Notes under the pieces: model-generated
What the model was told of the DNA's origin: nothing
The model's database searches: none
The model's input: the letters and a program-made list of their open reading frames with translations, nothing else
Shown here: piece after piece, positions 19,996-32,199 of the stretch
How positions within the stretch are numbered: position 1 is the first letter of the stretch
How the letters are laid out: each line of letters opens with the position of its first letter
Made by a program: the position numbers and the translations under genes
Assembly (NCBI GenBank): GCA_026392115.1
Contig: JAPLCQ010000032.1
Coordinates: forward strand, 1 to 64,000
Direction: 5' to 3'
Source: Armatimonadota bacterium
Lineage (GTDB): Bacteria; Armatimonadota; Chthonomonadetes; Chthonomonadales; CAJBBX01
Length of the DNA stretch: 64,000 nucleotides

Positions 19996-22900
19996 CTATC
20001 GCCTCCGCGCCGCCGTCAGAGCCAGCAGGGCGGGCACGCCGCGCCGGTCGGGGCCAGCCTCCAGGTCCACCGAGGCGATCGCCACGTCGGGCCTGGGGTT
20101 GTTCCACTGCTTGCTGTAGGCCACCGCGTTGCCCCCGCCGGCGGCGAAGGGCTTGATCCATGCGAGTTGCGCGCCGGGGATCGCCTGTGGGTAGGCCTGC
20201 CGGTAGTCGGCGGCATCGATCTCCACGCAGAGCGGGATCGTCGCCGTCTGGCCGTCTGCGTAGTGGACGACGTAGCGCGCGAACTCGTATCGCTTGCCCT
20301 CGCGGCGCTCGCGGTCGTCGCGGCCCTGATCGATCCTGGCAGCCTGCAAGAAGAAGAGCGCATCGGCCTTGCGGTTCACCGCGACGCCCCGCACGGCGTC
20401 CGGCAGATTGCCCGGCACGCCGCCGCCGCCCAGTATGACGATGGTCGGCACAGGGGATGTGGCGAAGCTGTAGACGTTGTACGGTACGCCGGCGAAGGTG
20501 TTCTTGCCGTTGGGCAGGTCGGCCAGTGTGCGGTCGCGGTCGCCGAAGCAACCCCGGGCGTCCTTGTACTGGTTGGCGGCCTTGGAGAGGTCGATGGGCT
20601 CGTAGTCAAGGTTCTCGCCGGCGATCACCGCGGCCGAGCCGGAGAAGGGCGCCCGCAGGTTCCGAAGCAGGGCGGAAAGAATGCGCAGCTTCTTCGTTGC
20701 GTTGTCCGGAACCTGCTCGCGCTCCTTGATGAGCAGGTTGCAGAGGACGATGCCGCCCTTGCCCATGTCGTACTGCATGAGCCCGCCGTTGTTCAGCAGC
20801 GGGTGGACGCGGGCGAGGAACTCCGGCGAGCGCCTGGCGGTCAGGCGGATGTTGTCGACGCCTACCACGTTCGCGGTCGTGCTCACCTTGGCCCAGTCGG
20901 TGATCTTGAACGTGATGCGCGAACCCTTGACCGCGGGCTTGATCTCCAGGCTCTGCGGCTCGTTGCCGGGCTTCACGGCCAGCGACGCCGTGCTGGTCCC
21001 GTCGCTCAGCTCGATGCGCGTGACCAGATGGTAGAAGGCGTTGCCGATCCACTCGATGCCGGTCAGTTCCTGCGGCTTGGGGAACTCCATGGTGAACTCG
21101 GGCTTGTCGCGGGTCAGGTCGAATGAGAAGATGTACTTCCACGCGTCGGCCGAGACCATGCCGTTGACCATGTTGTAGTGGTAGTCGGAGGGTAGCTTGG
21201 CGAAGGGCGCCACCTCGTCGTAGTCCACGCAGGCGCTGAAGATGTCCGATGCCACAAACTCGTCGGCGGTCCATCCGAAGATGCGCTCGCCGCTGTACAT
21301 CACGACATCGCTGTTGGTGAGGCCGGCGGTGAGCGGATGGCGCACGGCCGGGAAGGTGACGCGCTCCTGGCGGAACGGGCGGATCATGTGGTCAACGCCG
21401 ACAACCTTGTTGTAGTCGGCCAGCCCCTCGGCCGTGAGGCCGTGGAAGAAGAGCCAGCCGCCGCCCGCAGTGAACCGCCGCACGGAGTCCGGTGCGCCGG
21501 CCAGCGCCTTCAGGTTCTGCGGAGCAGCCTCGATGACGGCGATCTTCGCGCCCGGCGTCGCCAGGGCCTGCAGCGGGCCCTGCGCCCTGGTGTGCTTCAG
21601 GCCGATCTTCTCCAGCGCGCTCGCGAAGAGCTTGTCGCCCACCACTGCGGTCGCCACGGGCCGGTACTCGAGCCTGTACTCCAGCGCGTAGCGGAGCATG
21701 TTGGCCAGCAGACGGCCCGCCACGGCGTTGGTGGAGGCGTTGCGTCCCACGGCCATCTGGCAGAGGAGCATGAGGCCGGAACCCACCGGCGCCTCGGCGA
21801 GGGCGGTGTTGGCCAGCCGCATATGGCACTGGATGAGCGACTTGGCGCCTCGGCTCGGCTTGGCGTAGGCGTCGCGGTAGACGGGCAGGTCGATGCCCCA
21901 GGTCCAGAGGTCCTTCTGCTTCAGGCCCGCGGCGACCGGGTGCGTCATATCCTCGAAGTAGGCGGTGCGGCCTTCGTTCTGAGCCGTCTCCATCTCGGCG
22001 GGCAGGCCCTGATACCGGAGCGGGTGTTTCTGCTCCAGCACGATGAGCCTCCGTCCGCCCGCCACGGTCGCGGCCAACCGGCTCGACGTGGCCTCCGCCG
22101 CCGTGAGCGCGTCGGGACCGATGACGAGGACCCTGCAAGCCGCGGGCGTCGACGGTAGCGATGTGACGCGCGTGAACGATACGCCGAGGCCGGTGAGGGC
22201 GCCGACAGCCGCGCCGGACGGGTCGTAGACGCAGACCGCGCCCGCCGGCTGCGGGGTGATCGGCTCCGGAGCGCCCAGCGCGGAGACGGCCTTGGTGTCG
22301 CGGAAGACTTCCTTGCCCGCCGCGGCCAGGGTCAGGAGCAGCGTGTACTCCTTGCGGCCGGCAGAGGAGGGGATCGGCACGTCGATCGTGAAGCGCTGCG
22401 AGGCGCCCGGCGCGGGAGTGCAGACGCGCGAGGCGCGCCATGTCGCCTTGCCCGCGGCCATCAGTTGCGCAGTGAAGGTGAGGGGGTCGCTGAAGCGACT
22501 GTCGTTGAAGACGCCGATGGCGCGCTTCACGGTCGATCCGGCCTTGAAGGTCCAGTTCCACTCGCGGCAGAAGGCGGCCCGCTCGGCCTGCGAGACGTAC
22601 TGGCCGGTGGCGTCGCCCTGGCCCATCCAGAAGTGCCAGGCGCTCTGTCCAGCCCACCGGTAGCCCTCGGTGAGCATGCGGTAGATGATTCCCGCCGCCC
22701 GCCGCGACTGCGCCTTGCCCTGGAAGGTCTCCTCGCCGCCGTAGTAGGCGTAGTCGAACGGGTTGATGCCCGTGGCGAAGAAGTCCTCGCCCATGAAGCG
22801 CGGCCGCTTCTCGTCCCAGACCCACCGGTCGCGCCCGCCGCCCTTGGCGTTGGTCTCGTAGGCGAGGTCGGGGTAGCGGCCGTCGGCGGGATCGAAGACG

Positions 22901-24978
22901 TAGTGGTTGCCGTGGACCGGCATCGACTGGTCCTTGTTCGCGCCGCCGCCGTCGGTCATCAACGGGCGCGTTGGGTCGACGGCCATGACGGCGTCGGCCA
23001 CGCTCTTCACCTCGCGCTCGAAGGCGTCCATCATGCCGCCGTAGAGGTTGATGCAGTTGATGTAGAGCCACTCGTTCTCGATGGACCAGATCATCACGGA
23101 GGGGTGGTTTCGCTCGCCGCGGACCTGCGCGGTCACCTGGTCCTTCCAGTTCCGCATCAGGTCCATCTTCACGTCGGAGCCGCCGAGCTTCTTCAGTTCG
23201 GGGTCCTCTTCGATGGCAGTGTAACCGATGGCCTCGCCGTCGAGCATGCCTGAACGCCGGACGACGACGCCGTTCTGGTCGAAGGCGTCCAGAGCCTTCT
23301 CGGGCGACAACCCCATCCAAGTCGTGCCCCAGAAGCGCATCATCCTGTGGCCGTCGGCGCGGTGGTCGGCGAGCCACTCGGCGGGCGTGGCGGCGGTGTG
23401 GCAGTCGGTCCAGAGGCGCCAGGGGATGCCGTTCAGGCGGAAGTCACGGCCCACCCAGCTCCACTCGCGGAAGCCGAACGGCGTGTCGCAGATGTCGGGG
23501 CTGCCGCCGTCGGTCTCTACTGTGGCGCGAAGCAGGTAGAGGTGAGGGGCGTCGGGCCACCAGAGCTTCGGATCGGCCCAGGGCGCTGCCACGGTGAGCG
23601 TCAGCTCGGCGCCGGGCTGCAGCGCGGTCTCCTTGCCGGGCAGCTCCAGGGCGACCTTGCCGGTGGCCCGGTCCAGCACAGAGACCTTCACACGGGCGGT
23701 CACGGCCTCGGCGCCGGGATTGCTCAGCGTGATATCTGCCGCCAGCTCCTTGCGCGCCACGGAGGGCCGGACAAAGACATCGGCTGCGCGGGCACGGCCG
23801 GCCACCCAGAACTCGGGCGTCTGCAACAGGCCCGACTCGGCATGGTTCCAGATCGGATAGGCCAGCCGCTGGAAACCGTCGCCGAGGAACTTGGGCGGCA
23901 GGTTGAACTGCCTGCGGAGCCTCGACGGGTCGCTGGGCGGGTAGGAGTAGGCGTACCAGGCGTCGCGGATGCCCACCAGCACCTCGTTCACGCCCGGCCG
24001 GATGGCCTTCGTGACGTCGATATCGAACAGCACGAACGGGTTCTTGTTGAAGCCGCAGGGGATGCCGTTCACCACCACGGTTGTGTTCAGGTTGTTCTGC
24101 GGGAAGCGGAGGAAGCAGGAGCGGCCGGCAGCGCCGGCCGGCAGGTTTACGCGGGTGCGGTACCAGATCCGGTGGGCCATGAGCAGGTCGGGGCGCAGCG
24201 TGTTCTTGTCGCCGGGCACCTGGATGCCCGTCCAAACGCCTTCGGCGGGCAGGTCGCGGATTGGCTCTGCAACGGGCGCGGGTGTCTGCTCATCGGCGCG
24301 GCAGATCTCCCAGGCGCCCTTCATCGCGACCATGGTGCGGCCCTGCTTGTCCAGTTCGGGAACCTGGAACGTCTGCCTGGCGGCCTCGGCGTCCAGGGCG
24401 TCGCCGCGCGCCTCGCCGGGCTTGAGGCGTCCGTTGGGCCGGAATGGGGTCGGCGAGAGGCAGAGAGCGTCGGACGCGTAGAGCATGCGCTCACGCTGCC
24501 CCTTGGCGTCGGCGGTGCGGGGCAGGCGCACCTCCAGCGTGTGGCTCCCTGCCGTGAGCGTGGCGTCGCCCAGCTTCAGCCATGCGACCTCGCACCAGAA
24601 GTCCACCTCCATCAGGTCGCAGGTGAGCTGGTCGGGGAGGACGCGTTGCCATGCCCCGTTGTCGATGCGCCACTCGAAGGGCGTGCGGGCGAACTCGAAG
24701 CCGATGCGGTCCCGGACCTCGTAGGGGCCGGCCGCCGCGGCCTGAAAGGCATAGGCCATGAGGACGCCGTCGACCGGGGTTTGGCTGTCGACCTTGTCGG
24801 CGTCGATGGCGATATGGAGCCACTGCTCGCCGGAGAGGAACTCCTTGTGCCCCCAGCCCGCGATGTTCGGCTTGACGTTGCACCGGGCGGCCTCGCCCTC
24901 GATCCAGATCACCGGCGCCGCCCATGCCGTCGGTACCATCGTCAGGACGGCCGCGGCCGCCCACCAAGCCCATCGCAT
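19996..24978 (-). CDS. Very large exported GH2-type glycosidase with extra C-terminal domains
   Basis: 1660 residues, about twice a normal GH2 enzyme. A signal peptide (WAWWAAAAVLTMVPTAWA) precedes a CBM-like domain beginning IWIEGEAARCN. A sugar-binding domain (RFPQNNLNTTVVVNGIPCGF) and Ig-like domain lead to the barrel at about 510-800, where NHPSVMIWSIENEW puts the acid/base at Glu636. PRFMGEDFFATG may hold the nucleophile. Beyond about 930 there are two GATase/ThuA-like regions (RVLVIGPDALTAAEATSS; KIAVIEAAPQNLKALAG), a discoidin-like segment and a final domain. Start is supported by GGAGG. The exact substrate is unknown. Confidence 0.82.
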   Translation of the reverse strand: MRWAWWAAAAVLTMVPTAWAAPVIWIEGEAARCNVKPNIAGWGHKEFLSGEQWLHIAIDADKVDSQTPVDGVLMAYAFQAAAAGPYEVRDRIGFEFARTPFEWRIDNGAWQRVLPDQLTCDLMEVDFWCEVAWLKLGDATLTAGSHTLEVRLPRTADAKGQRERMLYASDALCLSPTPFRPNGRLKPGEARGDALDAEAARQTFQVPELDKQGRTMVAMKGAWEICRADEQTPAPVAEPIRDLPAEGVWTGIQVPGDKNTLRPDLLMAHRIWYRTRVNLPAGAAGRSCFLRFPQNNLNTTVVVNGIPCGFNKNPFVLFDIDVTKAIRPGVNEVLVGIRDAWYAYSYPPSDPSRLRRQFNLPPKFLGDGFQRLAYPIWNHAESGLLQTPEFWVAGRARAADVFVRPSVARKELAADITLSNPGAEAVTARVKVSVLDRATGKVALELPGKETALQPGAELTLTVAAPWADPKLWWPDAPHLYLLRATVETDGGSPDICDTPFGFREWSWVGRDFRLNGIPWRLWTDCHTAATPAEWLADHRADGHRMMRFWGTTWMGLSPEKALDAFDQNGVVVRRSGMLDGEAIGYTAIEEDPELKKLGGSDVKMDLMRNWKDQVTAQVRGERNHPSVMIWSIENEWLYINCINLYGGMMDAFEREVKSVADAVMAVDPTRPLMTDGGGANKDQSMPVHGNHYVFDPADGRYPDLAYETNAKGGGRDRWVWDEKRPRFMGEDFFATGINPFDYAYYGGEETFQGKAQSRRAAGIIYRMLTEGYRWAGQSAWHFWMGQGDATGQYVSQAERAAFCREWNWTFKAGSTVKRAIGVFNDSRFSDPLTFTAQLMAAGKATWRASRVCTPAPGASQRFTIDVPIPSSAGRKEYTLLLTLAAAGKEVFRDTKAVSALGAPEPITPQPAGAVCVYDPSGAAVGALTGLGVSFTRVTSLPSTPAACRVLVIGPDALTAAEATSSRLAATVAGGRRLIVLEQKHPLRYQGLPAEMETAQNEGRTAYFEDMTHPVAAGLKQKDLWTWGIDLPVYRDAYAKPSRGAKSLIQCHMRLANTALAEAPVGSGLMLLCQMAVGRNASTNAVAGRLLANMLRYALEYRLEYRPVATAVVGDKLFASALEKIGLKHTRAQGPLQALATPGAKIAVIEAAPQNLKALAGAPDSVRRFTAGGGWLFFHGLTAEGLADYNKVVGVDHMIRPFRQERVTFPAVRHPLTAGLTNSDVVMYSGERIFGWTADEFVASDIFSACVDYDEVAPFAKLPSDYHYNMVNGMVSADAWKYIFSFDLTRDKPEFTMEFPKPQELTGIEWIGNAFYHLVTRIELSDGTSTASLAVKPGNEPQSLEIKPAVKGSRITFKITDWAKVSTTANVVGVDNIRLTARRSPEFLARVHPLLNNGGLMQYDMGKGGIVLCNLLIKEREQVPDNATKKLRILSALLRNLRAPFSGSAAVIAGENLDYEPIDLSKAANQYKDARGCFGDRDRTLADLPNGKNTFAGVPYNVYSFATSPVPTIVILGGGGVPGNLPDAVRGVAVNRKADALFFLQAARIDQGRDDRERREGKRYEFARYVVHYADGQTATIPLCVEIDAADYRQAYPQAIPGAQLAWIKPFAAGGGNAVAYSKQWNNPRPDVAIASVDLEAGPDRRGVPALLALTAARRR

Positions 24979-25091: not shown

Positions 25092-25382
25092 TCAGGTGAG
25101 GTAGAGGCGACGAAGCTCCTCGGGCGCGCCAACCACCTTGATGGCGTTCTTGATCTGCTCCAGTACCTCAATGTCGGCAACCTGCCGTATCGCGTCCATT
25201 TGCGCCAGGGCTGCATCCCCGAACCGCAGTTCAAGCCCTAGCTCGATCGCCTCGAGGAGCCCCCGGTGCATGCCCTGCCGCATCCCCTGGCGCACTCCCT
25301 GCTGCATGCCCTGCTGCATTCCCTGCTGCATGCCCTGCTGCATGCCTTTCCGGATGCCGGCTTCCTCATAGATGTTGACCAT
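25092..25382 (-). CDS. Predicted intragenic short form of the Rpn protein (RpnS-like)
   Basis: In frame with the nuclease, ATG at 25382 is preceded by a full AAGGAGGT (25390-25397) with seven bases between. This is a better ribosome site than that of the full-length gene. The 96-residue product starts MVNIYEEAG, contains the whole repeat run and ends with the same C-terminal domain, and lacks the nuclease. Such short internal products block the full-length toxin in characterised Rpn loci of Escherichia coli. Whether this one is made is inference. Confidence 0.55.
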   Translation of the reverse strand: MVNIYEEAGIRKGMQQGMQQGMQQGMQQGVRQGMRQGMHRGLLEAIELGLELRFGDAALAQMDAIRQVADIEVLEQIKNAIKVVGAPEELRRLYLT

Positions 25383-26063
25383 ATCCGTGACCTCCTTGGC
25401 GCCGGTCTGCTCGATCAGCCTGGCCAGGTCCTGCTCCTCGGTTGGCGACAGCTTGAGATATGTGCCTACCACATGCACCAGCAGGCTCCTGCGGGCCTCG
25501 TCGATGCCGGCCAGTGCAAGCCTGTGCAGCGCCCGAAGCTTGTGCCGGACCGGCCCACCTCGGCCTGACTGCATCAGGGCGCTCACTGCTGGCCCAAGGG
25601 CGCTCTCCGCCCTGAGGAAGCGCGCCGCACTGAAGCTAGGGATCGCTATGGCCCAGTATCGGAACGTTAGGTGAGTGGCCCCGAACAGCCGCTCATCGTA
25701 GCGCTGCCGCGTTAGCCCCGCACTTCCCTTGCTCAGGTAGACGACGATGGGCAGCACCGGCGCCCTATGCCGCGACCGGAGCAGGTGGTAGTACGTCCAC
25801 ATACGGTGCGGCATGGAGGCATCGTGCCGCTTCTGCACCTCAACGTGCACCAGCGGAATCTGAGGATCGCCCCCGGCTCCACCGACCCTGGCGACGAGGT
25901 CCGCTTCGCGCCTCTTGCCGTCCGGCAGGTCTGTGAAGACCTCCCGATCCAGAAACGCCATGCCACTAAAATCGATCTGCTCGGCCACAGCCGGAAGGAA
26001 TAGCCCCATGAAATCCGGCAGGAACTCGCGCAGCAGCTCCTTCCACAACTGGTCATGCCGCAT
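25092..26063 (-). CDS. Rpn-family (PD-(D/E)XK) nuclease with hypervariable repeat
   Basis: 323 residues from ATG at 26063; a 24-residue longer frame exists but gives no family-like sequence. The N-terminus HDQLWKELLREFLPDFMGLF and the nuclease core (DREVFTDLPDGKRREADLV, then LVHVEVQKRHD) match Rpn/transposase-31 proteins; Asp55, Glu75 and Gln77 are the likely metal-site residues. TYYHLLRSRHRAPVLPIVVYL is the conserved strand-turn after it. Near the end is a run of GMQQ-type four-residue repeats, then a C-terminal domain. Family members cut DNA, can be toxic, and have been linked to phage defence. An internal start inside the gene (see next entry) looks like an antitoxin. Confidence 0.88.
   Translation of the reverse strand: MRHDQLWKELLREFLPDFMGLFLPAVAEQIDFSGMAFLDREVFTDLPDGKRREADLVARVGGAGGDPQIPLVHVEVQKRHDASMPHRMWTYYHLLRSRHRAPVLPIVVYLSKGSAGLTRQRYDERLFGATHLTFRYWAIAIPSFSAARFLRAESALGPAVSALMQSGRGGPVRHKLRALHRLALAGIDEARRSLLVHVVGTYLKLSPTEEQDLARLIEQTGAKEVTDMVNIYEEAGIRKGMQQGMQQGMQQGMQQGVRQGMRQGMHRGLLEAIELGLELRFGDAALAQMDAIRQVADIEVLEQIKNAIKVVGAPEELRRLYLT
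25272..25343 (-). repeat. Six 12-bp tandem repeats inside the rpn gene
   Basis: Six units of NCCCTGCTGCAT (plus strand), the four on the right differing only at the first base and the two on the left being more diverged. They encode GMQQ x4, GVRQ and GMRQ. The unit length is a multiple of three, so copy-number change keeps the frame. Rpn proteins are known for such variable tracts. Confidence 0.9.
25390..25397 (-). promoter_or_regulatory. Internal Shine-Dalgarno site in rpn
   Basis: AAGGAGGT on the minus strand, seven bases before the in-frame ATG of the predicted short form. It is encoded by codons for GAKEVT, where synonymous alternatives without a Shine-Dalgarno were available. Confidence 0.6.
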
Positions 26064-26105
26064 GACGCGCCCCACCCCTGCATCTTGACCAAGCGCCGCA
26101 GGCCC

Positions 26106-26135
26106 ATTGTACCGGCCACATAGGCCCGCGGGCAA
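26106..26135 (-). promoter_or_regulatory. Predicted rpn promoter
   Basis: Minus strand TTGCCC (26130-26135), 18-base spacer, TACAAT (26106-26111). Transcription would start about 35 bases before the chosen ATG, supporting the shorter start of the nuclease, because the longer frame's start codon at 26135 would lie upstream of the transcript. Confidence 0.5.
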
Positions 26136-26864: not shown

Positions 26865-28001
26865 ATGCGGACGTACCGGATCGGCGTGATCGGCGCTGGC
26901 ATGATGGGCAAGACGCACTCATGGTGCTGGCAATCGCTGCCCTTCTTCTATGAGAAGCTGCCCTACCGCTGCGTCCTGCACGGTGTGGCCACCTCGCGCA
27001 TTGCTAGCGCCGAGGCTGCCCGCGACGCCCTGGGATTCGCTCGGGCATTCGAGACGCCGGAGGCGCTCATCGCCGACCCGGAGATCGACCTCGTCGACAT
27101 CGCGTCACCGAATGACGCCCACGCTGACCAGCTGTTGGCCGCTGCGGCGGTCGGCAAGAAGCTCTACTGCGACAAGCCCCTCACCGGCCGGCTCGACGAG
27201 GCCGAACGGCTCGCCGCGGCCCTATCCGATCCCGCTTCCGCGGGGCAGATGGTCTTCCACAACCGATGCCTGCCAGCCACCATCCTGGCTCGCCGCATGT
27301 GTGAGGAGGGTCGCCTGGGTGAGATCATCGGATTCCGCGGCGCATACCTCCACGCGGGCAACGTGCCCGAGGGCAAGCCCCTGGCATGGAAGGACAGCCG
27401 CGCCATGGGCGCCGGGGTGCTATACGACCTGGGCTCGCACCTGGTCGATCTGGTCACCTGGGTCTGCGGCTCGCCGCTGGCCGAGGTACAGGCCCGGCAG
27501 GTGACGCTGAACCCGCGCCGGCCCTCCCGCGAGGATCCCTCGCGTTGGGTCGAGCAGGACTCCGATGACATGACCCTCATGTCGGCCCGGCTCGCCTGCG
27601 GCGCCGTGGGCTCGCTGGAGTGCTCCAAGATCGCCACCGGCGCCATGGACGAACTCCGCTTCGAGATTCACGGTCGGAAGGGCGCCCTGCGGTTCAACCT
27701 GATGGATGCCAACTGGCTGGAGCACTTCGACGCCGCCGATCCGGAGATGCCCTACGGCGGCTCGTCCGGCTTCAAGCGCATCGATTGTGTCCGGCGCTAC
27801 CCCTCGCCGGCGGGCTTCCCCTCGCCGAAGGCCACTGTCGGCTGGCTCCGTGCACACCTCCATAGCGTCTACACCTTCATCGACGCGGTGCACATGGGCG
27901 CGCCGTTCGAGCCTTCCATCCAGCGCGGCATCGATCTCGAGCGCATGCTCGCCGCCGTCGAGCGCGCAGCCCGGTCCGGCGCCTCGGAGCGTCTTGCATG
28001 A
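26865..28001 (+). CDS. Gfo/Idh/MocA-family NAD(P)-dependent oxidoreductase
   Basis: 378 residues with TGGAGG upstream. GVIGAGMMGKTHSWCW is the N-terminal dinucleotide-binding turn. DIASPNDAHADQLLAA and GKKLYCDKPLTG (the DKP variant of the EKP catalytic-lysine motif) follow, then VFHNRCLPATILARRM and the C-terminal beta-sheet domain with LYDLGSHLVDLVTWVCG, where the His is often catalytic. The family oxidises or reduces sugars, inositols and derivatives in the cytoplasm. The stop overlaps the next ATG as ATGA, so translation is coupled to the GNAT-mannosidase fusion. Confidence 0.93.
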   Translation: MRTYRIGVIGAGMMGKTHSWCWQSLPFFYEKLPYRCVLHGVATSRIASAEAARDALGFARAFETPEALIADPEIDLVDIASPNDAHADQLLAAAAVGKKLYCDKPLTGRLDEAERLAAALSDPASAGQMVFHNRCLPATILARRMCEEGRLGEIIGFRGAYLHAGNVPEGKPLAWKDSRAMGAGVLYDLGSHLVDLVTWVCGSPLAEVQARQVTLNPRRPSREDPSRWVEQDSDDMTLMSARLACGAVGSLECSKIATGAMDELRFEIHGRKGALRFNLMDANWLEHFDAADPEMPYGGSSGFKRIDCVRRYPSPAGFPSPKATVGWLRAHLHSVYTFIDAVHMGAPFEPSIQRGIDLERMLAAVERAARSGASERLA

Positions 28002-31000
28002 CGGCGCCGCACGCCGCGCGCCGCCAGCCCGCAGTCGCACTGGAGCCCCTCACCGCCCGCAATGCCGAGGAGATGTCCGCCTACCTCGACGCCCAGGACG
28101 GCGGCACGCTCAAGTACTTCCATCCCAAGCGCACCGACGTCGCTTACATACGGCGCCTCCTCTCCGGCGACACGGACGGCTTTGTGGTGGCCTTTGGCGC
28201 CTGGGCCGACGCCAAGCCCGATGACCCGTCCGGCCAGGCGCCGATTGTCGATGGGCGGCGCCTCGTGGGATACGTCTGGCTCTTCGAGATGCAGACTGAT
28301 AGCCCGCTCCTGGGCATCTGCGTGGACCCGGCCTGGCGACGGCAGGGGATCGGGACTTGCTTGCTGGAGCGGGCGATCGAGTCGGTCTTCCTCTGGGGCA
28401 AGCGGGAGCTCCGCCTGAGCGTCGATACCGGCAACTCCGGCGCCATCGAGCTCTACAAGAAGCTCGGCTTCGTGATCACCGAGCTCGGCGGCGTGGGACG
28501 CCCAGGCTACCACTCCATGGTTCTGGACCTGGCCGCCAGGCACGCTCAGCGCGTCCAGGCAATCCGCCGCCGTTGCGCCCGGACCCGCATCGCGCTGGTG
28601 CCCTACACCCACTGCGACTGGGCCTGGGTCCATACGCGGGCCTGGCACGAGCGCCGCTACGCCCTGATCTTCGCTGAGACGCTGGAGATCATGCGGCGTG
28701 AGCCCGACTACCGGTGGTACATCGACAACTGGGCCTGCCAGCTCGCCCCGCTGCTCGACCTTCGGCCCGACCTGCTGCCGGAGCTGCGCAGCCGCATCGC
28801 CGAGGGGCGCATCGCGGTCTGCGGCGGCTACTCCAACGTCCGCCCGCACATGGTCGGCGATGAGACCTACGTCCGAAGCCTCCTCATCGGTCGCCGCCTC
28901 TTCGGCGAGGCGTTCCCCGGCGCCGACCTGAGCGTTCAGGCCGACTCCGTCGATGTCGCCACCGGGCACCCGCAGTTGCCGCAACTGCTCCGCCAGGCCG
29001 GGTACGCATCGCTCCGCTTCTGGCGGCCCTTCTCGTCGCTCAGCATCAAGGGCATCCCCGTCGACTTTCGGTGGTCGGGGCTCGACGGCTCGCAGGTTCT
29101 CGCCTCGCGCGGCGGCTACGGCGGCCTCTTCGCCCCGGCCGAGGCGCACCGGCCCCTCCTGCAGCCCGAAGCGCTCGACGCCGATGCCATGGCAGAGATG
29201 CTCTGGGACGCGGAACTGCGCGAGCGCGCCTGGCTGGCCCCCACCGAGATGCTCTGGCTCTCGCTCGGCTGCGACGACACCCGCCCGCTGCGCACCATCG
29301 ACGACGCACCGGTCGACGCGCCGGCGCTGATCGCCCGGTGGCGCGAACTGGGCCTGGGCCAAATCGGTTTCGCCACGCCGGTGGACTACTTCGCCGAACT
29401 CCGAGCCCGCGCCGACCGCCTGCCGCTCATCGCCGGCACGCTCGACCCCTGCGATGTGGCCTACAACGCCGCGTGGAACGGCGAGCGTGGCCTGGCCGTC
29501 CAGCGCGTGGCCAACGATGCCCTCCTAACGCAGGCCGAGTCCGCCGAGGCCCTGGCGTCGCTGGCCCCAGGCGCCCAAACGCCTGCGGAGGACCTCGTGC
29601 CGCACGAGGCGCTCTGGCGCGATCACCTCCTCACCTGCGCACACGCCACGCAGTGGCTCTTCACCGAGGACTTCGCCGAGCTCAAGGAGACGGCCGACCG
29701 CGTGGGTCTCGAGGCCAACCGCCTCCGCACCGAGGCCCTGCGCGGCCTGGCGCGCGGCGTCCGCCTCCCGCAGGATACGCTGTGCGTCGTCTGGAACCCG
29801 CTTCCGTGGCGCCGCACCGTGGCCGTGCCGGTACAGGTGGCGCGTTACGGTGATGACTGGCCGCTGGCGCTGGTCGACCGCGCCGGATGCCCGCTGCTGG
29901 AACAGACCCTGGGCGCCAAAACCGGCCAGGGCGGCTACCCCGAGGAGACGCGGCTTGTCTCGCTGGAGTTGCCTCCCATGGGCGTGGCCCTGGTGTGCGA
30001 GTGGCCCCGCGATGCGACCGACGCCATCCTGTTGGCGGATGACGGGTTCGGGCCGCCCGAAGGCGTCGAACTGCTTGACCTCGTCCTCCACGACGTGGAC
30101 TGCCCCGGCGGCCCGCTCCATGTGGGTCCCATCACCGCGTCGCACACCCCTGTCTGGGGCGGCTGGGCGCAGCTTGAAAGCGGCCCGGTGCGCCGGCGGA
30201 CCCATCGCGCCGGCGAGATCGACGGCCTGCCCGTGACGATGACGCTGGACCAGCACGCCGGGTCGCCCAGGATCGACGCCGAGGTGCGGATCGACTGGCC
30301 GGGCCGCGACGGCTTTCTGGCGGCCCGCGCTCCGTTGCCGCCCGGCGCTCGCCTCTTCGGCGACATCCCGTTTGGCGTGGAGCTGAAGGACATCGAGAAC
30401 GAGCCCTACCTCAAGGACGCTTGGCCAGCCTGCAACAGCATGGAGCGGTGCCGCGAGGGCCTCTTCTATGCCCGGAGCTTCGTGGCCTGTCAGGGCGATG
30501 GGGGAGGGTACGCGCTGATCGGTCGAAACACCGATCGCTACTACCGCCGCAGCCCGGATGGCGCTTGGCTGGAGCACCTTCTCCTCAATAGCGTGGTCTC
30601 GCTGGACGAATGGGAGCATCACGTCGAGCCCTCCACCATTGGCGGCAGGGGACCGCACACGCTCCGTTTCAGCCTGCTGCCCTACATCGGCACATGGCAG
30701 GAGGCGTGTGTGCCGCACTTGGCAGCCGAGGCGCGGGCCGGAGCACCGGTAGGCCGCCCGGTGCGCTCGGCAGGCGCAACGCTCGCCGATTCGGCCCCCG
30801 AGCTCTCGGTGGAGCCCGGCTCGGTCCTCGCCACAGCCGTATGGCGCAGCGCTGGCTTCTTCCACGTCCGGCTCCACGAAGCCCACGGCGCCCCGGCCGA
30901 GTGCATGGTGCGCCTGCCCTTCGCACCGGCCTCCGTGGAGTGCCTGGACCTGGGCGGCGCGCCGTCGGAGGGTGTCGTGCCGGTCCTGCGCGGTTCGGAG

Positions 31001-31063
31001 GTCCGCTTCGTGCTGCCGCCGTGGAAGATCGTAACCGTGAAGGCGCATTTGGCTCAACCCTGA
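27998..31063 (+). CDS. Fusion of GNAT acetyltransferase and GH38 alpha-mannosidase
   Basis: 1021 residues in one uninterrupted frame. Residues 1-180 are a GNAT domain: LVGYVWLFEMQTDSPLLGIC, the acetyl-CoA loop WRRQGIGTCLLERAI (113-127), and NSGAIELYKKLGFVIT. From 195 on it is a GH38 protein: RIALVPYTHCDWAWVHTRAW holds the zinc His205/Asp207, and SVQADSVDVATGHPQLPQLL places the likely nucleophile at Asp316. The C-terminal beta domains extend to the end (VEPGSVLATAVW). The linker (RHAQRVQAIRRRCARTR) has no good internal start, so it looks like a true fusion. No signal peptide, so it would act on imported mannosides. Confidence 0.88.
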   Translation: MTAPHAARRQPAVALEPLTARNAEEMSAYLDAQDGGTLKYFHPKRTDVAYIRRLLSGDTDGFVVAFGAWADAKPDDPSGQAPIVDGRRLVGYVWLFEMQTDSPLLGICVDPAWRRQGIGTCLLERAIESVFLWGKRELRLSVDTGNSGAIELYKKLGFVITELGGVGRPGYHSMVLDLAARHAQRVQAIRRRCARTRIALVPYTHCDWAWVHTRAWHERRYALIFAETLEIMRREPDYRWYIDNWACQLAPLLDLRPDLLPELRSRIAEGRIAVCGGYSNVRPHMVGDETYVRSLLIGRRLFGEAFPGADLSVQADSVDVATGHPQLPQLLRQAGYASLRFWRPFSSLSIKGIPVDFRWSGLDGSQVLASRGGYGGLFAPAEAHRPLLQPEALDADAMAEMLWDAELRERAWLAPTEMLWLSLGCDDTRPLRTIDDAPVDAPALIARWRELGLGQIGFATPVDYFAELRARADRLPLIAGTLDPCDVAYNAAWNGERGLAVQRVANDALLTQAESAEALASLAPGAQTPAEDLVPHEALWRDHLLTCAHATQWLFTEDFAELKETADRVGLEANRLRTEALRGLARGVRLPQDTLCVVWNPLPWRRTVAVPVQVARYGDDWPLALVDRAGCPLLEQTLGAKTGQGGYPEETRLVSLELPPMGVALVCEWPRDATDAILLADDGFGPPEGVELLDLVLHDVDCPGGPLHVGPITASHTPVWGGWAQLESGPVRRRTHRAGEIDGLPVTMTLDQHAGSPRIDAEVRIDWPGRDGFLAARAPLPPGARLFGDIPFGVELKDIENEPYLKDAWPACNSMERCREGLFYARSFVACQGDGGGYALIGRNTDRYYRRSPDGAWLEHLLLNSVVSLDEWEHHVEPSTIGGRGPHTLRFSLLPYIGTWQEACVPHLAAEARAGAPVGRPVRSAGATLADSAPELSVEPGSVLATAVWRSAGFFHVRLHEAHGAPAECMVRLPFAPASVECLDLGGAPSEGVVPVLRGSEVRFVLPPWKIVTVKAHLAQP

Positions 31064-31074
31064 GGAGGCCGACC

Positions 31075-32199
31075 ATGACCGAGCGCGAGCGTTGGCTGGA
31101 GACGATGCTGTTCGGCAAGCCCGACCGCGTGCCCTGGTCGCCGGGCGGACCCCGCGAGTCGACGCTGCGGGCCTGGCGCACACAGGGCCTGGCCGAGGGG
31201 GAGGACTGGTACGCCCGGCTTCGTGGCGAGGTCGGGTTGCCGCCGCTGGTGCAGTCCCCGCGCCCCGCCGTCTGGATCAAGCACACCATGGAGCCCATCT
31301 TTCCCGAGGTCGTCCTCGAGGAGCGGGGCGACAGTCGCGTCGTCCAGGACTGGAAGGGCAACGTCTGCGAGATATCCAACGCCTTCGACGTGAGCTACCT
31401 GCGCTCGGCCAGGGACTTCGTCACGCGCCGCTGGATCCGCTGCCCGGTGGAGGGTTGTGCCGACTGGGAGGCGATGAAGCCACGATATGACCCGCAGGAC
31501 CCCTCCCGCGTTCCCGCTGATCTCGCGCAGAACGTCGACGCCCTGCGCACACGCGACCACGTCGTCGGCCTCCACGTCCACGGCCCCTTCTGGCAGATGC
31601 GCGAGTGGATGGGTTTCGAGGGGCTCTGCATGGCCTTCATCGAGCAGCCCGAGCTGATCGAGGATATGGTGCGATTCTGGACCGAGTACGTGGCCGCGTT
31701 GCTCGTGCGCGTGGTCCCGCTGGTGCGGCTCGACTACTTCCACATCTCCGAGGACATGGCCTACAAGGTCAAGCCCATGATCGGCCCGGCCATGTGCCGC
31801 CGCTTTCTCTTGCCCTGCTGGGCCGCCTGGGGCGAGATTATCCGCGCTCACGGGTGTCCGGTCTACCAGGTCGACTCGGACGGCTTTGTGGGCGACCTGA
31901 TCCCGGTCTGGATGGAGGCCGGCATCAACGCCACCGACCCGCTGGAGGTGGCCGCCGGCAACGACCTGCCCGCACTGCGCGGGGTGTTCGGCCACCGGAT
32001 CGCCTACTGCGGCGGCGTCGACAAGTGCTGCATGGCCAGGGGAGGGGAGAGCCTGCGCGAGGAGTTGGCCCGCCTGACGCCCGTGGTCCACGACGGCGGC
32101 TACATCCCCAGCTGCGACCACGGCGTCCCGCCGGACATCAGCTGGCCCAACTTCGTGGACTACGCCCGGCAACTGGCCATGATCACCGGCTGGCTGTAA
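31075..32199 (+). CDS. Uroporphyrinogen-decarboxylase-like (UroD superfamily) protein
   Basis: 374 residues, start set by GAGGAGG six bases before ATG 31075. RERWLETMLFGKPDRVPWS is the opening of UroD/MtaA-like proteins; HVHGPFWQMREWMGFEGLCM and DYFHISEDMAYKVKPMIGP follow, and IAYCGGVDKCCMARGG and GGYIPSCDHGVPPDISW close the barrel. True HemE enzymes have conserved Arg/Asp loops not seen here, and heme genes are absent nearby. Relatives in sugar clusters of this kind are uncharacterised, and methyltransferase-type roles (MtaA/CmuA) are known for other branches. It ends the operon that starts with the PH-like gene. Confidence 0.82.
   Translation: MTERERWLETMLFGKPDRVPWSPGGPRESTLRAWRTQGLAEGEDWYARLRGEVGLPPLVQSPRPAVWIKHTMEPIFPEVVLEERGDSRVVQDWKGNVCEISNAFDVSYLRSARDFVTRRWIRCPVEGCADWEAMKPRYDPQDPSRVPADLAQNVDALRTRDHVVGLHVHGPFWQMREWMGFEGLCMAFIEQPELIEDMVRFWTEYVAALLVRVVPLVRLDYFHISEDMAYKVKPMIGPAMCRRFLLPCWAAWGEIIRAHGCPVYQVDSDGFVGDLIPVWMEAGINATDPLEVAAGNDLPALRGVFGHRIAYCGGVDKCCMARGGESLREELARLTPVVHDGGYIPSCDHGVPPDISWPNFVDYARQLAMITGWL

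Follow-up and report, generated by a model that had tools for sequence, protein, structure and literature searches.

Does the union of an acetyltransferase and a glycoside hydrolase in one bacterial polypeptide reflect a common task of the two domains, or is it an accident of assembly or of gene order? This question is raised by the window analyzed here, a stretch of 64,000 nucleotides from a bacterium of Armatimonadota, a phylum that has received little study (GenBank assembly GCA_026392115.1, contig JAPLCQ010000032.1, positions 1 to 64,000), in which a GNAT N-acetyltransferase domain and a glycoside hydrolase family 38 (GH38) domain share a single open reading frame. The frame (27998-31063, plus strand) comprises 1021 codons from ATG to TGA and is uninterrupted by stops. 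Domain matches, alignment and recurrence in other genomes show that the GNAT-GH38 fusion is real and conserved, and both of its catalytic cores are predicted to be intact. Its parts are as follows.

27998..31063, + strand, GNAT-GH38 fusion protein, 1021 residues (open reading frame, Pfam, kept in 10 genomes)
28037..28531, + strand, GNAT N-acetyltransferase domain, residues 14-178 (Pfam PF00583/PF13508, alignment, dN/dS)
28337..28354, + strand, acetyl-CoA loop RRQGIG, residues 114-119 (alignment; G117 and G119 invariant)
28532..28588, + strand, junction, residues 179-197, with an RxxAIRRRCARTRI segment (alignment, N-termini of sister proteins)
28589..29407, + strand, GH38 catalytic barrel, residues 198-470 (Pfam PF01074; PDB profile matches 2wyh, 3lvt and 6lz1)
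29768..31060, + strand, GH38-type C-terminal beta domains, residues about 591-1021, boundary approximate (full-length profile match to 3lvt/5kbp)

An initial annotation, made from the letters of the window alone, had proposed a GNAT fused to a GH38 alpha-mannosidase with the hallmark motifs of both families. The fusion and the motifs are borne out. Pfam detects both domains: PF00583 matches residues 83-158 (E 1.4e-13, 51.6 bits against a cut-off of 20.7), PF13508 matches as well (E 1e-11), and Glyco_hydro_38N (PF01074) covers residues 198-470 (E 1.3e-20, 74.3 bits against a cut-off of 25). Matches above the curated cut-offs combined with an acetyl-CoA loop of the R/Q-x-x-G-x-G/A type (R114-G119) place the N-terminal part in the GNAT superfamily, and the PF01074 match, together with the H205-C-D207-W motif, places the remainder in GH38. 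A match to PF17677 (GH38 C-terminal) at residues 957-1014 stays below threshold; in a PDB profile search GH38 homology spans the whole C-terminal 830 residues (3lvt and 5kbp; 2wyh in two pieces). By eye, no signal peptide is evident in the fusion protein, whose N-terminus opens with the GNAT domain. An AlphaFold2 model built on three sequences only reached a mean predicted local distance difference test score of 33.

The possibility that an assembly error or a missed stop codon has joined two genes can be rejected with near certainty. The assemblies in question are drafts in many contigs, but the fusion stands in frame in each of ten species that were assembled separately. In a survey of 291 Armatimonadota genomes, GNAT and GH38 occur in one frame in ten, which belong to three families and range from 91 to 34% identity, and because of this recurrence neither artefact nor chance is a sufficient explanation. 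The fused copies comprise those of three species in the window's genus (91 and 87% identity), three more from its family (G007, G009 and G011; 48-50%), one from another family (G040; 48%) and three from a third (G043, G056 and G216; 34-37%). The initial annotation had also allowed for close relatives with the two domains as separate genes and a stop missed here; instead these ten are fused, and the GNAT-less relatives simply have no GNAT at the locus. A further scan of public contigs, which used patterns from the window protein and hence recovered only close relatives, returned as nearest ones metagenome-assembled genomes of uncultured Chthonomonas sp., 91 and 87% identical. Viral contigs yielded no relative, and plasmid and phage records yielded only distant ordinary GH38s. 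The literature searches made turned up neither GH38 fusions with GNAT nor data from biochemical work on proteins of this kind.

Purifying selection acts on both domains, as the ratio of non-synonymous to synonymous substitution rates (dN/dS, Nei-Gojobori) is low within the genus: 0.14-0.17 for the GNAT domain, 0.08-0.11 for the catalytic part of GH38 and 0.22-0.26 for its C-terminal part. The GNAT loop and N146 are kept in all ten fused proteins, Y153 in nine of them.

The catalytic residues of the GH38 domain were assigned by reference to SpGH38, in which His13, Asp15, Asp125 and His351 bind zinc, Asp125 is the nucleophile and Asp232 the acid/base (PMC2815779), and to SpAms1 with the zinc ligands H290, D292, D402 and H615 (PMC7609781).

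28610..28618, + strand, H205-C206-D207; H205 and D207 are predicted zinc ligands (SpGH38 H13/D15, SpAms1 H290/D292; alignment, invariant)
28952..28954, + strand, D319, predicted to serve as nucleophile and to bind zinc (SpGH38 D125, SpAms1 D402; profile alignment)
29273..29275, + strand, D426, predicted acid/base (SpGH38 D232), followed by the invariant D427 (alignment)
29642..29647, + strand, H549, predicted fourth zinc ligand (SpGH38 H351/SpAms1 H615), and A550 (alignment)

Nineteen members of the subfamily, ten fused and nine without GNAT, were compared with seven ordinary GH38s, five of which come from the window's own genome. The four zinc ligands H205, D207, D319 and H549 are invariant in all 19, as are the acid/base D426, W210 and R343, the latter two the equivalents of W18 and R149 in SpGH38, and Y374, the tentative equivalent of Y192. 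The nucleophile D319 and the acid/base D426 align with D125 and D232 of SpGH38. The nucleophile had initially been placed at Asp316; profile alignment to solved GH38 structures moves it to Asp319 (in VDVATGHPQ), and not every GNAT-less sister keeps Asp316. A suspected loss of the fourth zinc ligand, where the histidine of an HRGTYT motif is replaced by Tyr or Phe, was dropped because the Ams1 profile alignment and the literature place this ligand at H549, which is kept.

In its relation to GH38 alpha-mannosidases (SpGH38 2wyh, GH38 3lvt, Ams1 6lz1, MngB) the protein shows full-length homology and shares the zinc ligands, the nucleophile, the acid/base and the equivalents of W18 and R149. On the other hand, two residues of the canonical mannose -1 subsite are replaced. 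A550 stands in place of the sugar-binding Asp after the zinc histidine (SpGH38 D352/SpAms1 D616) and is Ala in all 19 members, and A321 takes the place of the DxF Phe (SpGH38 F127), two positions beyond the nucleophile, and is Ala or, in two sisters, Gly, whereas all seven ordinary GH38s have Asp and Phe at these positions. The subfamily further differs by the additional invariant D427, by the motif HxDWAWxHTRxWH and, in ten members, by the N-terminal GNAT. The GH38 domain therefore belongs to a divergent subfamily with an altered -1 pocket and apparently intact hydrolytic machinery. Since the whole subfamily has Ala or Gly instead of two sugar-contacting residues, the activity name alpha-mannosidase, which the initial annotation had used, does not appear safe without an assay; the GH38 homology is unaffected, and the finding cautions against annotating such proteins as alpha-mannosidases. 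The genome that contains the window (G000) has 13 places that match the GH38 catalytic domain, seemingly many for 5.7 Mb.

Fusions of glycosidases with GNATs are already known, albeit with other glycoside hydrolase families and with a C-terminal GNAT. The O-GlcNAcase of animals likewise joins a glycosidase to a GNAT-fold domain (PMC3814719, PMC3919268, PMC7988489), but it belongs to GH84, a family absent from the Pfam hits of the window protein, and its C-terminal domain is described as a pseudo acetyltransferase, whereas the acetyl-CoA loop is intact here. Ngs1 of Candida albicans combines a glycosidase-type domain and a GNAT in one polypeptide, and binding of GlcNAc to the former activates the latter (PMC5063960). 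This precedent bears the possibility that the GH38 domain of the window protein is a sensor that binds a sugar and switches on the GNAT, which would then acetylate a protein or small molecule, with hydrolysis secondary or absent. The loss of two canonical residues from the -1 pocket would agree with such a role, as would the fact that several of the best PDB matches of the GNAT domain are protein-type acetyltransferases (RimI, ARD1). However, Ngs1 has a GH3 domain with a broken catalytic dyad, a C-terminal GNAT and a function in eukaryotic histone acetylation, while the window protein has a GH38 domain, an N-terminal GNAT and an invariant set of zinc ligands, nucleophile and acid/base that argues for real hydrolysis. 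A regulator gene linked to the fusion was not seen, and we regard a sensory function as unlikely.

When was the GNAT acquired? Sixteen further members of the subfamily in the GH38 tree begin directly at the GH38 domain, and all nine of these that were checked carry Ala550 together with Ala321 or Gly. Because the GNAT-less sisters share the altered pocket, the change of the pocket predates the GNAT. For four of the sisters (family f22) the genomes give only weak or partial GNAT matches and no full relatives; for others, relatives of the GNAT are present elsewhere in the same genome. The fused proteins fall into two clades of the GH38 tree, a trio from family f16 and seven proteins from f1 and f13, with GNAT-less proteins between them. 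In the GNAT tree, the fused domains of f16 fall together with standalone GNATs from their own genus (97/92), apart from the other seven (100/99). The approximately unbiased (AU) test, which was framed after the tree had been seen, rejects a single fused clade with p 0.032. The junctions differ as well. The RxxAIRRRCARTRI segment in the junction of the window protein looks like the native N-terminus of GNAT-less sisters, and an 'IRRRL' segment similar to the sister N-termini 'IRERL' and 'VRERL' is retained in the f1 and f13 proteins; in f16 these 14 residues are missing. As both trees split the fused proteins and the junctions differ, two independent fusions seem more likely than one, which is suggested rather than proven; a single fusion with later splitting appears to be the less likely alternative. 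Repeated fusion of the same two partners would in turn point to a shared process.

These results also bear on the idea that neighboring genes were fused by accident and that one domain is a functionally unlinked passenger. As GNAT-less sisters exist, the family can do without the GNAT, and the substrate link between the domains is inferred only. Nevertheless, the fusion is retained from 91 to 34% identity over three families, its GNAT evolves under purifying selection and the event was probably repeated, all of which makes a passenger distinctly improbable.

We prefer a reading to which we assign a somewhat less than even chance: the fusion is a bifunctional enzyme that breaks down glycans in the cytosol; its GNAT domain N-acetylates an amino sugar and its GH38-type domain releases it. 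The GNAT domain would move the acetyl group of acetyl-CoA onto a primary amine, most likely that of an amino-sugar residue in an oligosaccharide, and the zinc-dependent, retaining GH38-type domain would remove the acetylated residue. With the altered -1 pocket, plain mannose is not an obvious substrate. To judge by the retained zinc site, the bound sugar probably keeps its 2-hydroxyl, and an amine at a position other than 2 is therefore more likely. The freed sugar would probably be handed to an oxidoreductase of the Gfo/Idh/MocA type encoded next to the fusion. We favor acetylation before or at cleavage, which has a parallel in the breakdown of heparan sulfate, over acetylation of the freed sugar. 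In that pathway N-acetylation of terminal glucosamine must precede cleavage by NAGLU, a GH89 enzyme, and the acetyltransferase, HGSNAT, is not a GNAT. HGSNAT, a transmembrane enzyme, uses acetyl-CoA to N-acetylate glucosamine when heparan sulfate is degraded (PMC5047683). The likeness is thus a functional analogy, amino-sugar N-acetylation in the course of glycan breakdown; HGSNAT and NAGLU are separate proteins, whereas in the window the two activities would reside in one polypeptide.

Several observations weigh against this explanation. GNATs acetylate many amines, so that a sugar as the target is only inferred. The altered pocket is present in GNAT-less sisters and is hence not an adaptation to the product of the GNAT. 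A retained 2-hydroxyl in the -1 sugar is a poor fit for a 2-acetamido sugar. The fused copy in G040 (L064:7884-10940) has Ala at the position of the GNAT tyrosine Y153 and its acetyltransferase may be impaired by this loss. The statistics behind two fusions are modest, and the GH38 tree is compatible with a single fused clade (AU p 0.366). Finally, the f16 fused copies sit among unrelated genes, and the neighborhood is therefore not constant. If the GNAT does acetylate the substrate of the attached glycosidase, the protein would be a soluble, single-polypeptide counterpart of the acetylate-then-cleave step of heparan sulfate breakdown and would help to identify the substrate of a GH38 subfamily with a sugar pocket unlike that of the ordinary members compared. 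A conserved and probably twice-assembled fusion suggests that both activities act on the same material.

Two genes on the same strand flank the fusion gene closely.

26865..28001, + strand, Gfo/Idh/MocA oxidoreductase, 378 residues, sharing 4 nt (ATGA, 27998-28001) with the fusion gene
31075..32199, + strand, URO-D-superfamily protein, 374 residues, with its ATG 11 nt past the stop codon of the fusion gene

The link to the Gfo/Idh/MocA gene noted at the outset holds up as co-occurrence: start and stop of the two genes abut in G002, and a relative (62-63% identical) lies two to three genes upstream of the fusion in G009 and G040. The URO-D-superfamily gene is also found directly downstream of the fusion in G001 and G002. 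In G040 the fused gene is preceded on the same strand by genes for a xylose-isomerase-like TIM protein, a glycerate kinase, an FGGY kinase and a creatininase-family protein. GNAT-less sisters adjoin sulfatases with an N-sulphoglucosamine sulphohydrolase C-terminal domain in G265 and G255, an MTTB methyltransferase in G255, and sialidase-like BNR and GDSL esterase proteins in G273, G267 and G268. Sulfatase genes of this type (L077:5690-7093 and L071:6660-7850) are located directly upstream of GNAT-less GH38 genes. Taken together, the neighborhood fits the breakdown of a decorated glycan and does not name the sugar.

Relatives of the GNAT are joined to further domains, and the same group includes standalone proteins in the phylum. 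In one set (L116-L121 and L131, from G045, G031, G058, G040, G263, G262 and G260) the GNAT is N-terminal to a TIM-barrel-like domain of about 430 residues, visible only in part in L131, with a marginal GH42 match in L117 and no confident Pfam or PDB match. In three proteins (L122:5140-6939, L123:3751-5571 and L124:4069-5913) it is C-terminal to ceramidase-like domains; in L125:3821-5737 it is N-terminal, and the partner is ceramidase-like by eye, without a Pfam match for ceramidase. PDB searches with these two other hydrolase partners gave weak matches. The ceramidase family releases a free amine. Such fusions would also accommodate the reverse order of steps, the option named first in the initial annotation, in which GH38 hydrolyzes first, the GNAT acetylates the freed amino sugar and the N-acetylated sugar passes to the next enzyme. 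The domain and operon evidence for this order is the same as for acetylation before cleavage; the order of steps cannot, however, be read from the sequence, and the GNAT-less relatives manage without a GNAT at the locus, which leaves capping of the product an improbable alternative. A broader and rather doubtful generalization is that one Armatimonadota GNAT group is a recurrent acetylation module that became attached on several independent occasions to different hydrolases (GH38, probably on two of them; the TIM-barrel-like domain; ceramidase-like domains, possibly in both orders). In such a 'cap-and-cut' scheme acetyl-CoA would be spent either to open amino-sugar or amine substrates to cleavage or to put their products into a usable form.

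Upstream of the operon, the opposite strand encodes a protein of 1660 residues (19996-24978), which has glycoside hydrolase family 2 domains and, besides them, long additional regions. A protein of 347 residues without a Pfam match is encoded at 25092-26135, and a 12-bp tandem repeat (25267-25346) specifies GMQQ/GMRQ units near its C-terminus.

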